Shown here piece by piece: positions 57,705 through 63,542 of a stretch of DNA of 64,000 nucleotides. Each line of letters begins with the position of its first letter. Within the stretch, counting starts at the first letter, position 1. The notes under the pieces were generated by a model. The model searched no databases. It had not been told where the DNA came from and saw only the letters and a list, made by a program, of their open reading frames with translations. Both the position numbers and the translations under genes were made by a program. Source of the DNA: Psychrobacter pygoscelis (lineage in GTDB: Bacteria; Pseudomonadota; Gammaproteobacteria; Pseudomonadales; Moraxellaceae); the NCBI RefSeq assembly GCF_004335015.1, contig NZ_RQRU01000001.1:1116001-1180000 (forward strand), in the 5' to 3' direction.

Positions 57705-58391
57705 ATGGAAATAGAATTTGCCAACATAGAGACGCCAAGTAACTATCAAGAAAAGTGTCTTTGCGTGCTAGTTCTTGATATCTCAGGCTCTATGCGTGGA
57801 GGGCGTATCAAGGCGTTAAACGACGGGCTGCAAAGCTTTTATGAAGACATCCGTCAAAACTACTCACTTGCTGATGCTTTAGAGATTGCTATCGTCACCT
57901 TTGGTGATGCGGCGCAGCGCGTCCTAGAGCCAGCGCTAGTTGAGGACATGAAGATGCCCAAGCTTAAGGCACACGGCGGCATGACCAACTTAGTGGACGG
58001 TATCGAGACGGCTATTGAGATCGTCGACGAGCGTAAGCAATTTTATCGTCAGCATGGTATCAGTTATAAGCGGCCTTGGATTATTCCCATGACCGATGGT
58101 ATGCCGACCAATAGCGATAACGAGATCTCCCGAATCGCCGATACGGTGCACAGCGGTATGGCGGACAACAGCTTTCACTTCTTTGCCATCGGTGTCAAAG
58201 TGAATAGATCGGCTATGAGAACGCTCAACCGCATAAGCTCGCCCTTAGTGCCAGCCGCTCAGCTGGACGGTATTCGTTTCTCTGATTTCTTTCAATGGCT
58301 ATCTAATAGTATGGATAAAATTTCACACTCTCGTGAGGGCGATACCGTCGATCTTGAAGCGCCAAAATGGATGTCCGGACTCTCTGTGTGA
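57705..58391 (+). CDS. TerY-like von Willebrand factor A domain protein
   Basis: A 228-residue protein that is essentially one vWA domain. MIDAS motif DISGSMRGG (DxSxS, about residues 25-29), the threonine of GGMTNLVDG, and the third MIDAS aspartate in PMTDGMPT are all present, so metal binding is intact. The form without signal peptide, starting MEIEFANIETP, matches TerY-like cytoplasmic proteins of tellurite-resistance-associated systems. It heads a set with a PP2C phosphatase and a kinase (TerY-P triad). No other ter gene is in the window. A run of 16-bp repeats follows its stop codon. Confidence 0.9.
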   Translation: MEIEFANIETPSNYQEKCLCVLVLDISGSMRGGRIKALNDGLQSFYEDIRQNYSLADALEIAIVTFGDAAQRVLEPALVEDMKMPKLKAHGGMTNLVDGIETAIEIVDERKQFYRQHGISYKRPWIIPMTDGMPTNSDNEISRIADTVHSGMADNSFHFFAIGVKVNRSAMRTLNRISSPLVPAAQLDGIRFSDFFQWLSNSMDKISHSREGDTVDLEAPKWMSGLSV

Positions 58392-58467
58392 GGAAATGCT
58401 TATCTTAATTTACAATAAAGAATTTGCTAATACATAAGAGTAGACAGCATATCAAAGCACTAGCTTT

Positions 58468-58579
58468 TTGCTTTAAATGGTAATAACTTAAATAATAAGT
58501 AGCTTAAACAATAACTAGTTAAAGCGATCAGTAGTTTAAATAATCAGTGGTTTAAATAACAATCAATTAAAGTGATGGC
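58468..58579. repeat. Degenerate 16-bp tandem repeat between vWA and PP2C genes
   Basis: About seven consecutive 16-bp units share a TTAAA core, for example TAACTTAAATAATAAG, TAGCTTAAACAATAAC, TAGTTAAAGCGATCAG, TAGTTTAAATAATCAG and TGGTTTAAATAACAAT. The last unit overlaps the start codons of the phosphatase gene. Confidence 0.8.
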
Positions 58580-59747
58580 TATGTCAATTTCTTTTAGCGA
58601 TACCACGTCCAGCTCAGCTGAACCCAAGTTCGCTGAGGTATTTATCACAGCAGATACCGCGCCTGCTACCGGCCACTGGCAACTCAGCGGCGCTAGTGTT
58701 CGTGGCCTATCGCACCAGCAGCACTGTCTGCCTTGTCAAGATCGACATGGCTACTGTCAGCTTGCCGAGTATCCCGACTGGGCGATTGCGGTCGTGGCAG
58801 ATGGGGCTGGTGCCAAAAGTCACTCTGATATCGGCGCTCAGATCGTCGTGGCTGAGACCCTCAGCTTTGTTAAATCATGGCTACGCTCACAGCTTGAGTC
58901 ATCCGCGCAGTCTCAATTGATATTTTATCCGCACTGTGACTTTCATCCTCCATACCTTAGCCCTTCCTCTTCTCCCCTCGCAGGCGGCTTAAGAGGCAGC
59001 GACTCTCATAATAGTGTCTACAAGGTCGTACCAAGCTATATCAATGCTAGCTATAACAAAGCTTCGCTAGCCCCACCCGTCTTTTGGCAAGCTCCCTTCC
59101 TCCCCCCAGTATTACCTAAAGACTCTCAGCTCAGTCAATTGGCCGATCAGCTGTATCAGCATTTATATTCTCGGCTGCACGATTACGCTAGCCAGCAAGA
59201 TATCCCCATAGCAGCATTAGGATGCACATTGATTGTCAGTATTTTATCGCCTATTGGTGTTACCCTCATTCACATCGGTGATGGCCGCGCTGCCTATCAA
59301 GACACCGCGGGTGACTGGCATGCTTTAATGCAGCCTTGGAAAGATGATGAGGGCTATACTGTCTTTGTCACGACTCAAGCACTACAACAATCCTCGCGAC
59401 AAGCCAGCAGCAACAACCATGACTATATCCGCGCCACGACCGTCATGCAGCCTATTCAGGCTGTGGTGTTGATGAGTGACGGCTGTGAATCTTCCGCGTT
59501 TGAATGTCAGGTATTTGATGCCGCTAAGCAGCAATACATCAGGCCCAATCGACCTTTTGCTAGGTTTTTAGACCCAGTAAAATCAACCTTAATGCAGCTG
59601 CATCACCACTATCGCAATGATAGTGCAGCTATCAATTCGCGGTTTGCAGCGTTTTTGCAGCAAGGAGCAGACAGTCTAAAAAAAGAAGGTGACGATAAAA
59701 CTTTAGTCTTTGCCGTCTATCAGCCTCTTAACGCGCCTTCTAACTGA
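58575..59747 (+). CDS. PP2C-family serine/threonine phosphatase
   Basis: Metal-dependent protein phosphatase, about 390 residues. Motifs: CQDRHGY (D for metal), VVADGAGAKSHSDIGAQ (DG..G motif), ALGCTLIVSIL, LIHIGDGRAAY, and VVLMSDGCESSAF. Between about residues 115 and 170 there is a Pro/Ser-rich insertion encoded by DNA with a palindromic element. Starts at 58572 (GTG), 58575 and 58581 are in frame without a strong ribosome-binding site. It ends 12 bp before the kinase gene, so coupling is likely. It is expected to reverse the kinase's phosphorylation. Confidence 0.9.
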   Translation: MAMSISFSDTTSSSAEPKFAEVFITADTAPATGHWQLSGASVRGLSHQQHCLPCQDRHGYCQLAEYPDWAIAVVADGAGAKSHSDIGAQIVVAETLSFVKSWLRSQLESSAQSQLIFYPHCDFHPPYLSPSSSPLAGGLRGSDSHNSVYKVVPSYINASYNKASLAPPVFWQAPFLPPVLPKDSQLSQLADQLYQHLYSRLHDYASQQDIPIAALGCTLIVSILSPIGVTLIHIGDGRAAYQDTAGDWHALMQPWKDDEGYTVFVTTQALQQSSRQASSNNHDYIRATTVMQPIQAVVLMSDGCESSAFECQVFDAAKQQYIRPNRPFARFLDPVKSTLMQLHHHYRNDSAAINSRFAAFLQQGADSLKKEGDDKTLVFAVYQPLNAPSN

Positions 59748-59759
59748 CTGCCTTAAGTT

Positions 59760-61886
59760 ATGACTGTATTTTATGTTTGGCAACACGACGAGCTTACCCG
59801 CTTAGAGGTTGGCGCAGCGATTGGTCGTGGCGGTGAAGGGACCATCTACCCTATTACCGCGCCTCAAGAGTGGCTAGGCTACTGTATTAAAGAGTATGTT
59901 GAGAAGTACAGAACTGCGGCCAAAGAAGCCAAGCTACAGTTTATGGTTGATCATCCGCCTGAGCCGCTCCACTACGCGAATGGTAAGCTGTGTTGGCCCG
60001 TCGCCCTCGCATATGATGCAGGCTTTAGCGAATTTGTCGGCTATGTCATGCCGCTGGCTTATACCAATAGCCAGGAGCTGTACCTGCTGTCGAATCTAAC
60101 CAACAAGCGCCTAGGAGCTCAGTGGCAACCTTACTTCGATCAAAGCGAAGAGAGCGCTCATAAGCGTCTCAATATCTGTGTCAATCTGTGTACTAGCGTT
60201 CAGCTCCTTCATCAAGATACCAATTACGCTATTGTTGACTTTAAACCACAGAATATTATGTTTACCGCGGATGGCAAGGTCGCTTTGGTGGACTTAGACT
60301 CCCTACAGATTCGTGCTGATGAGTCGGGGGAGCCACACTATGGACGGGTTAACACCCTAGAGTACACGCCGCCTGAGGGCGCGAACATCACGGTAAAAGA
60401 CACGTTGGTTAATAAGAGTTGGGATGAATTCTCCCTCGCTGTTATCCTCTATCAGATACTGTTCGGCATTCATCCTTATATGGCGACCTTTGCGCCGCCT
60501 TTTGAGCAGCTAAATAGTCTAGGCGACAAGATTCAACAAAACTTATTCGTTCATGGTCAAGGCCAGCGCCATCTTAGCGCCTTACCAGCGCCGCATAACC
60601 GATTCAATCTATTGCACGATGATATTCAGCAGCTATTTAGGACCTCCTTTGATAATCGAACCGATTATCGGGCATCAGCCACGCTCTGGCAAGAAACCTT
60701 ATCTCAGCATATCCAGCAGCACTCACATGGCCTTACGCCGCCGCCTGTCAAGTCTGTTAAGCCAATTAAGGGTCGAGCTACTGCCGCTTTCTCTTTAAGC
60801 GCCTTATCTTCACAGTCATCTATTGTTAGCACCTGCACTGGTTGGATTACGGCATTATCAAAGGCACTCTTACGACTGATAGCAGGGATTAATAATTATC
60901 AATCACGACAACGTCAGCAATCGTCTAAAGCTAAACCGCCTAAAGCCTCTACGTCGACCGCTACTAATAAAAGCAATAGTATTAACCAGACTCGCAGTTC
61001 ATCACATCAGCGTGCTAAGGCCCATCAGAGTTCGGTAAAACAACAAACCTCGCGCTATCAAAAACGCAGTTATGGTAATAATACTCCGCCTAGTCAGACG
61101 CAGCATCGCTCTTGGCTTAGCAGCCGTGCCAAATCAAAATCACTGCACCCCTTTAGTCCGGCTCCTTTAGCGATAGCAAAAGGCATTCAGCCGACACCAC
61201 GCAATATTATCTTTCGAGTCCCGATTGCGCTGATAACTCATTATCCAGCTGCGCTCATTAGTATCGTTATTATATTGTGCGCGGCCTTAAGTATCTTTTA
61301 CCGCCCATCATCTTCAACATCAAATCAGAGCAGCTATGTTCAGGTACACTCCGCTCAAATAGCTGAAGTAGAGGATAATCTAGTACAAGATAATGAGTCA
61401 AATTCAGCCGGTAATGCAGTAAAAGAGACACCAATCTATGACAATACTGACTATTATCCCGCCCGCCCGAACCGACCCTACCCTTATGATACCTATGAGC
61501 AGTTAAAGCGGCGAGCATTGGAGCAAGAACGAGCGCAACAAGAGCAAGAATATCAAGAGGCTACGCGAGAACCAAAAGACATTGTCATAAAGAGCAGCTC
61601 AGAAGCTAGATTTAGGCGAGCGCCTAACCCTGAGCTTCCGCAAAGATTGCTCAGGACTTTAAGTACAGATGGAGTATCTAGAGCAACCTTAAAAGTCACT
61701 GTAAGATTGAGCGTGAACAAACAAGGAGAGGTGACTGACATCACGATACAATCTTCTTCAGGTCATGAAGCGCTGGATAGATATACGCTAAGGGAGTTTA
61801 AAAAGGTAAAATTTTATCCTTTTATGCAAGATGGCAAACCTGTTAATGGTAGGGTGACTGTTCCTATCGTCTACCTTATTCCATAG
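59760..61886 (+). CDS. Protein kinase with transmembrane segment and TonB-like C-terminal domain
   Basis: A 708-residue protein. The kinase domain (about 15-320) has glycine loop IGRGGEGTIY (21-30), ATP-binding K44 (YCIKEY), catalytic loop IVDFKPQN with D160, K162 and N165 (HRD replaced by IVD), metal-binding D178 in VDLDSLQ (DFG replaced by DLD), and an APE-like TPPE. A low-complexity Ser/Gln/Lys-rich linker follows (about 330-480), then a transmembrane helix (about 494-514), an acidic/Gln-rich segment and a TonB_C-like domain (about 625-708: LKVTVRLSVNKQGEVTDITI, FYPFMQDGKPVNGRVTVPI). The topology places the kinase in the cytoplasm and the TonB-like domain in the periplasm. Third member of the triad. 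Confidence 0.88.
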   Translation: MTVFYVWQHDELTRLEVGAAIGRGGEGTIYPITAPQEWLGYCIKEYVEKYRTAAKEAKLQFMVDHPPEPLHYANGKLCWPVALAYDAGFSEFVGYVMPLAYTNSQELYLLSNLTNKRLGAQWQPYFDQSEESAHKRLNICVNLCTSVQLLHQDTNYAIVDFKPQNIMFTADGKVALVDLDSLQIRADESGEPHYGRVNTLEYTPPEGANITVKDTLVNKSWDEFSLAVILYQILFGIHPYMATFAPPFEQLNSLGDKIQQNLFVHGQGQRHLSALPAPHNRFNLLHDDIQQLFRTSFDNRTDYRASATLWQETLSQHIQQHSHGLTPPPVKSVKPIKGRATAAFSLSALSSQSSIVSTCTGWITALSKALLRLIAGINNYQSRQRQQSSKAKPPKASTSTATNKSNSINQTRSSSHQRAKAHQSSVKQQTSRYQKRSYGNNTPPSQTQHRSWLSSRAKSKSLHPFSPAPLAIAKGIQPTPRNIIFRVPIALITHYPAALISIVIILCAALSIFYRPSSSTSNQSSYVQVHSAQIAEVEDNLVQDNESNSAGNAVKETPIYDNTDYYPARPNRPYPYDTYEQLKRRALEQERAQQEQEYQEATREPKDIVIKSSSEARFRRAPNPELPQRLLRTLSTDGVSRATLKVTVRLSVNKQGEVTDITIQSSSGHEALDRYTLREFKKVKFYPFMQDGKPVNGRVTVPIVYLIP

Positions 61887-62704: not shown

Positions 62705-62850
62705 AGGGGCTGATTAAAATTATTGGTGCTGTTGTAATCATCTACTGTCAATTTATATTTTGCTCGGTGCTGGGCTATACTTTGCTCAGCGTCAGCTTAT
62801 TTATTACCCTAGCCCGTTACTCAAGATCGCTTTGCTGAACTATAGTAATA
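62705..62850 (+). pseudogene. Remnant of an alpha/beta hydrolase N-terminus
   Basis: Two frames read in succession give IKIIGAVVIIY..., then LGAGLYFAQRQLIYYPSP. That pattern, a hydrophobic anchor followed by YFQR-x-LIYYPxP, is typical of the first 35 residues of membrane-anchored alpha/beta hydrolases (BEM46/YfhR type). The rest of such a gene is missing and tpm begins within 30 bp. A decayed fragment is inferred. Confidence 0.5.
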
Positions 62851-62876
62851 GACACCCAATAACAAGGATCGAGAAT

Positions 62877-63542
62877 ATGGAAGCTAAATTCTGGCAAGAC
62901 CGATGGGCGAATAAAAAAATTGGCTTCCATGAGCCTGAAGTTAATCCAAAGCTAGCTACCTATTTCTATGCCTTGGATTTGGCTAGCGGTAGCCGGATAT
63001 TCGTACCTTTATGCGGCATGACGTGCGACATTGGCTGGTTAGCCCGTCAAGGGCATGACGTGGTCGGTATTGAGCTGGTTGAGAGTGCAGTCGTAGGATT
63101 ATTTGAAGCCCTAGACGTCATACCAAGCATCACTCAGCACCGGCACCTTACCCACTATTATGTTCAATACGCTGGGCGCAATATTGACATCTGGGTCGGC
63201 GATATCTTAGAGATGACCATTCGCGATATCGGGCCTGTCGACGCCATCTATGACCGCGCCGCTCTAGTCGCTCTGCCTGATACGCCGCCGCAATATTTAC
63301 GCTCCCGTTACACCCAGCAGTTGATTGACTTAACCAACAGCGCGCGCCAGCTAGTCATTACTTTTGATTTTGATCAAGAGCGTCGCCCTGGCCCACCTTT
63401 TGTCATCACTACTGAGCAATTGCAGACCTATTACGGCGCTCATTATCAACTTGACTGCCTCGAAGATATCTATTTAGAAGCCCTACTTAGAGACGGAACG
63501 CCTGGACGCAGCTTGGTGTGGTTATTAAAGAAACACGGCTAG
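62877..63542 (+). CDS. tpm: Thiopurine S-methyltransferase
   Basis: SAM-dependent methyltransferase, 221 residues. It starts MEAKFWQDRWANKKIGFHE, a strong TPMT signature; the SAM motif is VPLCGMTCDIGWLARQGHDVVGIELVE, and YDRAALVALP follows. In bacteria the family also methylates selenium and tellurium compounds, which may be relevant next to a TerY-type unit, but that link is speculative. AAGGA precedes ATG 62877; the longer open frame upstream belongs to a gene remnant. Confidence 0.94.
   Translation: MEAKFWQDRWANKKIGFHEPEVNPKLATYFYALDLASGSRIFVPLCGMTCDIGWLARQGHDVVGIELVESAVVGLFEALDVIPSITQHRHLTHYYVQYAGRNIDIWVGDILEMTIRDIGPVDAIYDRAALVALPDTPPQYLRSRYTQQLIDLTNSARQLVITFDFDQERRPGPPFVITTEQLQTYYGAHYQLDCLEDIYLEALLRDGTPGRSLVWLLKKHG

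Follow-up and report, generated by a model that had tools for sequence, protein, structure and literature searches.

The 64,000-nt stretch of Psychrobacter pygoscelis DNA analyzed here (contig NZ_RQRU01000001.1, positions 1,116,001 to 1,180,000; hereafter the window) carries at 57705-61886 of its + strand three open reading frames (ORFs) encoding, in this order, a vWA protein, a PP2C phosphatase, and a protein kinase, the last of which ends in a TonB_C domain. We consider it probable that these genes form a phospho-signaling triad of the YegL-PphC-YegI type, in which the kinase would act as a single-pass receptor kinase for an envelope component and would be reset by the PP2C. A reading made from the sequence alone (hereafter the sequence-only reading) had described such a same-direction triad, and the ORFs and Pfam matches to VWA_2, PP2C_2, and Pkinase bear it out (Table 1). 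By these searches, this is apparently the first case of TonB_C on a Ser/Thr kinase; our searches of the open-access literature turned up no such kinase with a TonB domain, and the word TonB is absent from the main text of PMC1262709, which surveyed prokaryotic kinase architectures in 2005.

The TonB-like C-terminus had been proposed together with a profile search and an AlphaFold model, and both agree with it. Pfam TonB_C matches residues 645-705 (E = 5.9e-15) with 55.9 bits, well over the cut-off of 24.6, and the NCBIfam model TIGR01352 (tonB_Cterm) matches the kinase end at 9.7e-12. Over ~105 aa, in an alignment that begins at about residue 604, the kinase end is 41-44% identical to the eight closest of 27 Psychrobacter TonB tails, one of which, at 42%, belongs to the TonB encoded in the same genome. 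The likeness to TonB is that of the C-terminal domain; in contrast to TonB, the window protein starts with a kinase domain, has no N-terminal His-bearing anchor, and carries its helix mid-protein. A separate model of the last 109 residues, with two sequences in its alignment, reached a predicted local distance difference test (pLDDT) score of 74.7, with ten-residue blocks at 66-90 from residue 21 onward. TonB C-terminal structures are its best matches: Foldseek ranks 1-18 are all TonB or the relatives FusB, HasB, and TolA, and VIA-align gave Z scores of 9.3 for 9dc4_T (root-mean-square deviation 5.0 over 84), 9.2 for 9ddz (2.2 over 75), and 8.4 for 6i97_D (2.7 over 85). We rejected a chance motif match, as the profile, the fold ranking, and the identity to the TonBs of the genus are concordant. 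The simplest origin of the domain would be that a Psychrobacter-type tonB gene contributed its 3′ part to a gene fusion.

Between kinase domain and TonB_C, the proposed low-complexity linker and transmembrane helix are likewise seen. The linker (residues 325-490) contains 15.7% K/R and no D/E, and the strongest hydrophobic stretch of the protein, at about residues 495-515, coincides with an AlphaFold helix at 496-513. Because the linker is basic without a single acidic residue, the positive-inside rule favors a predicted topology with the kinase in the cytoplasm and the C-terminal end in the periplasm. The modeled spacer helix at 579-602 is a possible coiled coil. In TonB, the His of the N-terminal anchor is a defining feature and is needed for coupling to ExbB/ExbD. 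The core of the window helix lacks His, whereas the helix of the genome's own TonB has one, and energization of the window kinase by ExbB/ExbD is therefore not expected.

By sequence comparison, the nearest characterized relatives of the window triad are YegL, PphC, and YegI of Escherichia coli: the vWA protein is 40% identical to YegL (2e-40), the PP2C matches PphC partially (1e-7), and the kinase shares 25% identity with YegI over 318 aa (8e-18). According to the accessible parts of PMC13232886, the Ser/Thr kinase YegI is bound to the membrane, autophosphorylates, and is a dephosphorylation substrate of PphC; accounts of YegI and PphC were also drawn from parts of PMC12189002. The yegL-pphC(yegK)-yegI set resembles the window triad in its homologous vWA, PP2C, and kinase genes, in gene order, and in a kinase described as membrane-bound, but E. 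coli K-12 has yegJ between pphC and yegI. The C-terminal half of YegI combines a CxxC segment with a hydrophobic stretch and a region resembling HHH_5 (20.1 bits, under the cut-off), in place of which the window kinase has the linker, a single helix, and TonB_C; YegI also sits in a different tree clade.

To place the triad among its relatives, we ran a vWA alignment scan of species genomes and took the best 80 of at least 579 confirmed matches. By our own models, PP2C was present in 77/80 loci, a kinase in 73/80, and both in 72/80; three of the eight loci without both partners (L142, L165, L169) end no more than 0.7 kb from the PP2C. The triad is widespread, its loci ranging from Bacteroidota and Cyanobacteriota through to archaea. 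YegL-PphC-YegI-type triads are a common system for which the literature consulted (PMC13232886) gives neither signal nor phenotype.

The sequence-only reading had instead related the triad to the TerY-phosphorylation (TerY-P) modules linked to tellurite/stress systems, an assignment that we do not retain. Since the nearest characterized relatives are YegL, PphC, and YegI, and the kinase stands apart in the tree from three kinases classed by eye as TerY-P, a tellurite role is not implied, and our open-access literature search found no report linking a vWA-PP2C-kinase operon with tellurite. The window shares with TerY-P triads a vWA protein with MIDAS (metal ion-dependent adhesion site) residues, a PP2C, and a kinase side by side; it differs in having no zinc-ribbon motif, OB-fold match, or TerD neighbor, and its kinase is separate in the tree. 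Cysteines occur in the window kinase only at residues 42, 78, 140, 144, 359, and 507, without a CxxC zinc-ribbon motif, and the Pfam search gave no OB-fold match. The earlier statement that TerY-P kinases usually end in zinc-ribbon or similar modules agrees with the accessible part of PMC11090510, where they are said to carry a terminal zinc ribbon and OB-fold triad kinases are mentioned too. The kinase architecture had been called unusual: this holds for the TonB_C outer domain but not for membrane anchoring, which is known from YegI and from triad kinases fused to transmembrane helices, mentioned for actinobacteria in a 2020 eLife paper (PMC7159879).

The window kinase retains K44, D160, N165, and D178 in our alignment, which rules out a pseudokinase through lost catalytic residues. 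The motifs IVD (158-160) and DLD (178-180), noted earlier as replacing HRD and DFG, are indeed present but are no oddity of this protein. In a 37-row alignment of hand-chosen kinases from the vWA-scan loci plus the window (omitting the C-terminal piece in locus L135, which has no kinase domain), K44, D160, D178, D180, and S181 are identical in 37/37 and N165 is kept in 35/37; by this alignment, IVD/DLD motifs are the rule in the triad-kinase family. The vWA protein keeps all of its MIDAS residues, DxSGS (25-29), T94, and D131, and the DGAG, GDG, SDG, and GDDK motifs are all found in the PP2C sequence. These vWA, PP2C, and kinase motif residues are the active residues of their families. In PASTA kinases such as PknB, a cytoplasmic Ser/Thr kinase is joined by one helix to an outer envelope-binding domain and has a PP2C partner. 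The window kinase resembles them in this receptor-like layout and in its PP2C partner, and PknB ranks high among the fold matches, but it has TonB_C in place of PASTA (unmatched in Pfam at E values up to 1), YegI-type catalytic motifs, and a vWA gene in the set.

In our tree, built from 84 kinase domains, the window kinase forms a pair with the kinase of a Psychrobacter metagenome-assembled genome (MAG; support 100/99), and these two form a five-row group (100/97) with three SH3-bearing Psychrobacter kinases (L031-L033). The group is nested in a 21-row clade (99/99) with members from Bacteroidota, Herpetosiphon, Verrucomicrobiota, and gammaproteobacteria. YegI belongs to a separate 56-row clade (96/93), and the three by-eye TerY-P kinases, together with four triad kinases from genomes of the same taxonomic order, fall outside both on long branches beyond a weak root fork (64/17). 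A CxxC just after the kinase domain was found in 53/69 kinases tested; the window kinase has none there. Because the 21-row clade accounts for 15 of the 16 kinases without it, and L136 and L140 are the only tested members of that clade to have it, the missing zinc ribbon is mostly a clade feature and not a peculiarity of the window.

The C-terminal halves vary across the triad-kinase family. The sister kinases L031-L033 resemble the window kinase in having a membrane helix (one strong hydrophobic stretch behind the kinase domain) followed by a further domain, but this domain is SH3_3 rather than TonB_C, which argues that outer domains have been exchanged within one small clade. They differ also in that no vWA or PP2C was found in the 13-19 kb fetched around them, and L031 and L032 adjoin an Hsp70-like gene. 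In the Pfam tally over 63 triad kinases, showing the 25 commonest of 108 families, TPR occurs in 11/63 and WD40 in 5/63, and SH3 is present in triad kinases L145 and L187; not all of these TPR, WD40, and SH3 parts lie clearly past a membrane helix. An outgroup kinase ending in SH3 (L147), which would make SH3 the older state, was considered and dropped (no Pfam match; 3.2 bits with our own model). It is possible, though we hold it only tentatively, that the kinase uses TonB_C to read TonB-dependent receptors or peptidoglycan and that the triad is a chassis exchanging SH3, TonB_C, TPR, and WD40. If true, eukaryotic-like kinase signaling would gain a direct line to outer-membrane transport.

The gene group beside the SH3 kinases is an observation in its own right. 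In L031 (1866-8828 and 9574-11544) and L032 (7906-17508), the kinases adjoin a common set whose products are a protein of 541 aa, one with coiled-coil-like character, an ~850-aa Hsp70 protein (PF00012 2e-65 in L031), and a 580-592-aa protein, which looks like a separate kinase-chaperone system. The E. coli yegI gene likewise neighbors an Hsp70-family gene, yegD.

We hypothesize that TonB_C, placed in the periplasm, would bind some component of the envelope, the likeliest candidates being peptidoglycan and outer-membrane TonB-dependent receptors. Binding would alter kinase pairing via the periplasmic helix 579-602 and hence autophosphorylation, the PP2C would strip the phosphate and so reset the kinase, and the vWA protein would be a cytoplasmic metal-dependent adaptor or substrate. 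The steps that go beyond the anatomy (ligand, substrate, role) are ones that we infer. The argument for an envelope ligand is that TonB_C stands where the sister kinases carry SH3 domains, which in bacteria often bind the cell wall. With known partners of TonB_C (TonB boxes, envelope) and SH3-bearing sisters, a concrete guess at the signal can be made.

Among the genomes examined, TonB_C on a triad-type kinase was found only in the window genome and the Psychrobacter MAG. The MAG locus (L056/L135) has the same vWA-PP2C-kinase order on one strand, its kinase gene being broken by an assembly gap in the linker. Identity between the two copies is 66% in the kinase domain vs 24% in TonB_C and 23% in the spacer, and the MAG TonB_C, at 23.1 bits, falls short of the Pfam cut-off (24.6); it may therefore bind something else or be decaying. 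This divergence and the restriction of the fusion to two genomes weigh against an envelope-receptor role for the kinase, as do several further points: the topology is a prediction, the model of the spacer and periplasmic helix rests on very few related sequences, and the fold match is modest, with a single Foldseek row at E<=0.001 (6i97_D, 4.7e-4) and three chains at Z>=8. In addition, the accessible parts of PMC13232886 report that an inducing condition for YegI was not found and that its role is not known.

Both the rarity of the fusion and the divergence of tail and spacer would also suit the view that a tonB 3′ end was captured by chance, has no sensing role beyond anchoring, and is now decaying. 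We regard this as quite unlikely: the window frame is open, the domain is intact, scores well in profile searches, and has TonB structures as its best fold matches, and both copies retain the helix, the spacer, and a TonB_C-like end. Outer domains of receptors, moreover, are often fast-evolving. Alternatively, TonB_C could meet the TonB boxes of outer-membrane receptors, so that the kinase detects receptors in their loaded state or competes with TonB, acting as a sensor of iron or nutrient transport. The window domain does retain the TonB C-terminal pattern, and its best structural matches include receptor-bound TonB C-terminal domains (9dc4, 6i97, 2gsk). However, no receptor or ExbB/ExbD gene is among the eight neighboring genes scanned, the membrane helix is without the His of the own-genome TonB helix, and the MAG copy is poorly kept, which together make this account unlikely.

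A TonB model from 26 TonBs of the genus (E 1e-4), which may overlook distant TonB_C domains, matched 1/80 vWA loci, that of the MAG (L135). By eye, no kinase-TonB_C pairing was seen among the listed matches of 96 relatives besides the window, of 20 genomes behind loci, or of 303 genomes of the class (at most three candidates scored per genome). The same pairing was absent from 119 genomes of the phylum of L208 (at most nine candidates per genome), with no TonB_C among the matches listed; several of these listings are rank-limited, so rare fusions may escape them. The class scan gave two TonB_C matches in long frames, by eye not kinases but an M56/BlaR1-like protein with TonB_C and a TonB preceded by a long frame. 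Plasmid searches matched 35 records, 0 of them covering 80% of the query, one phage record matched over the kinase part only, and a scan of viral contigs found no vWA relative. L252 (330-2210) encodes by eye a BlaR1/M56-like protein with a TonB_C end, another membrane signaling-type protein carrying this domain.

Table 1. Features of the triad locus (positions are those of the window; residues are those of the kinase protein).
Feature	Position	Strand	Basis
vWA protein, YegL/TerY-like, 228 aa	57705-58391	+	VWA_2 7.5e-9 (Pfam); 40% identity to YegL
vWA-PP2C intergenic gap, 180 bp, AT-rich	58392-58571		
PP2C phosphatase, PphC-like, 391 aa from GTG	58572-59747	+	PP2C_2 4.8e-32 (Pfam)
Kinase protein, 708 aa	59760-61886	+	Pkinase 3.2e-11, residues 101-242; TonB_C 5.9e-15 (Pfam)
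Kinase domain, residues 1-322	59760-60725	+	Pfam, alignment, AlphaFold pLDDT mostly >90
Low-complexity basic linker, residues 323-493, one predicted helix 356-388	60726-61238	+	Sequence, AlphaFold
Transmembrane helix, residues 494-515	61239-61304	+	Hydrophobicity, AlphaFold
Predicted periplasmic spacer, residues 516-638, helix 579-602	61305-61673	+	AlphaFold; topology from basic linker
TonB_C domain, residues 639-708	61674-61883	+	Pfam, NCBIfam, TonB alignment, fold matches

The triad is located between cmoA and msrA in both the window and the MAG, and NCBIfam identifies the window neighbors as cmoA, cmoB, argS, msrA, and a TPMT-family methyltransferase gene. The neighborhood survey in Moraxellaceae that the sequence-only reading had proposed covered 348 genomes of the family, among which only the MAG holds close relatives of the kinase (66%) and of the vWA protein (74%). 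CmoA is matched in 99/100 genomes of the genus. When the 30 best CmoA loci were fetched, a vWA gene stood beside cmoA in two (the window and the MAG), with the whole triad in both; the other 28 hold no triad, and in all 28 msrA and cmoA are 97-901 bp apart (middle value 227 bp). One genome (G332) lacks the triad although its CmoA is closer to that of the window than the MAG's is (85% vs 83%), and the history may thus involve gain, loss, or both. In 1-kb windows, the G+C content of the triad is 0.42-0.50, like its surroundings, so composition gives no sign of recent transfer or foreign origin.

Patchy presence at an otherwise conserved site, along with the same three gene types, would also fit a TerY-P-like anti-phage or stress cassette. 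The accessible part of PMC11090510 describes TerY-P triads and cites Gao et al. 2020 for an anti-phage function of OB-fold triads. The TPMT-family gene (62760-63542), two genes downstream of the triad, points the same way: its TMPT_Se_Te match, at 216.6 bits, narrowly misses the cut-off (223.2). We nevertheless judge such a cassette very improbable here. PADLOC gave no match for the vWA protein or the PP2C and only kinase-core models for the kinase (PD-T4-6, mad6, PglW, and one more; best 4.8e-9), the neighbors include cmoA, cmoB, msrA, and argS, zinc-ribbon motif and OB-fold match are both lacking, and the tree separates the window kinase from the TerY-P rows, although its deepest fork is weak.

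The earlier statement that no other ter gene lies in the window stands in that no TerD-family match was found there (other ter genes were not searched for). The TPMT-family gene, with its possible tellurium/selenium link, is the sole hint of a tellurite role. Elsewhere in the genome there are seven TerD-family matches, five on the window's contig. All seven, among them those at C11:392628-399271, are far from the window, so that the genome has a ter-like cluster, unlinked to the triad. The MAG locus has a different gene at the TPMT-family position. By eye, the start of the TPMT-family protein resembles that of an alpha/beta-hydrolase-like protein encoded after msrA in L056 (12052-12885). The TPMT-family and hydrolase-like genes possibly reflect gene replacement beside the triad.

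Promoter and terminator scans of the locus gave signals no higher than shuffles. The PP2C start is the GTG at 58572, with further in-frame ATG codons at 58575 and 58581, and the kinase starts 12 bp after the PP2C stop. Inside the vWA-PP2C gap, a 16-bp AT-rich direct repeat (~4.6 copies, 58487-58559) may serve as a regulator site or may simply reflect AT-rich drift.

In L092 (6192-10826) and L095 (2424-6617), from another genus of the family, both the PP2C and the kinase of the triad contain a hydrophobic stretch (Kyte-Doolittle score 1.6-2.4) and extend into a long additional part that Pfam does not match above cut-off. In the triad of L057 (4968-7799), also from another genus of the family, the order is vWA, kinase, PP2C (PP2C_2 2.4e-26).

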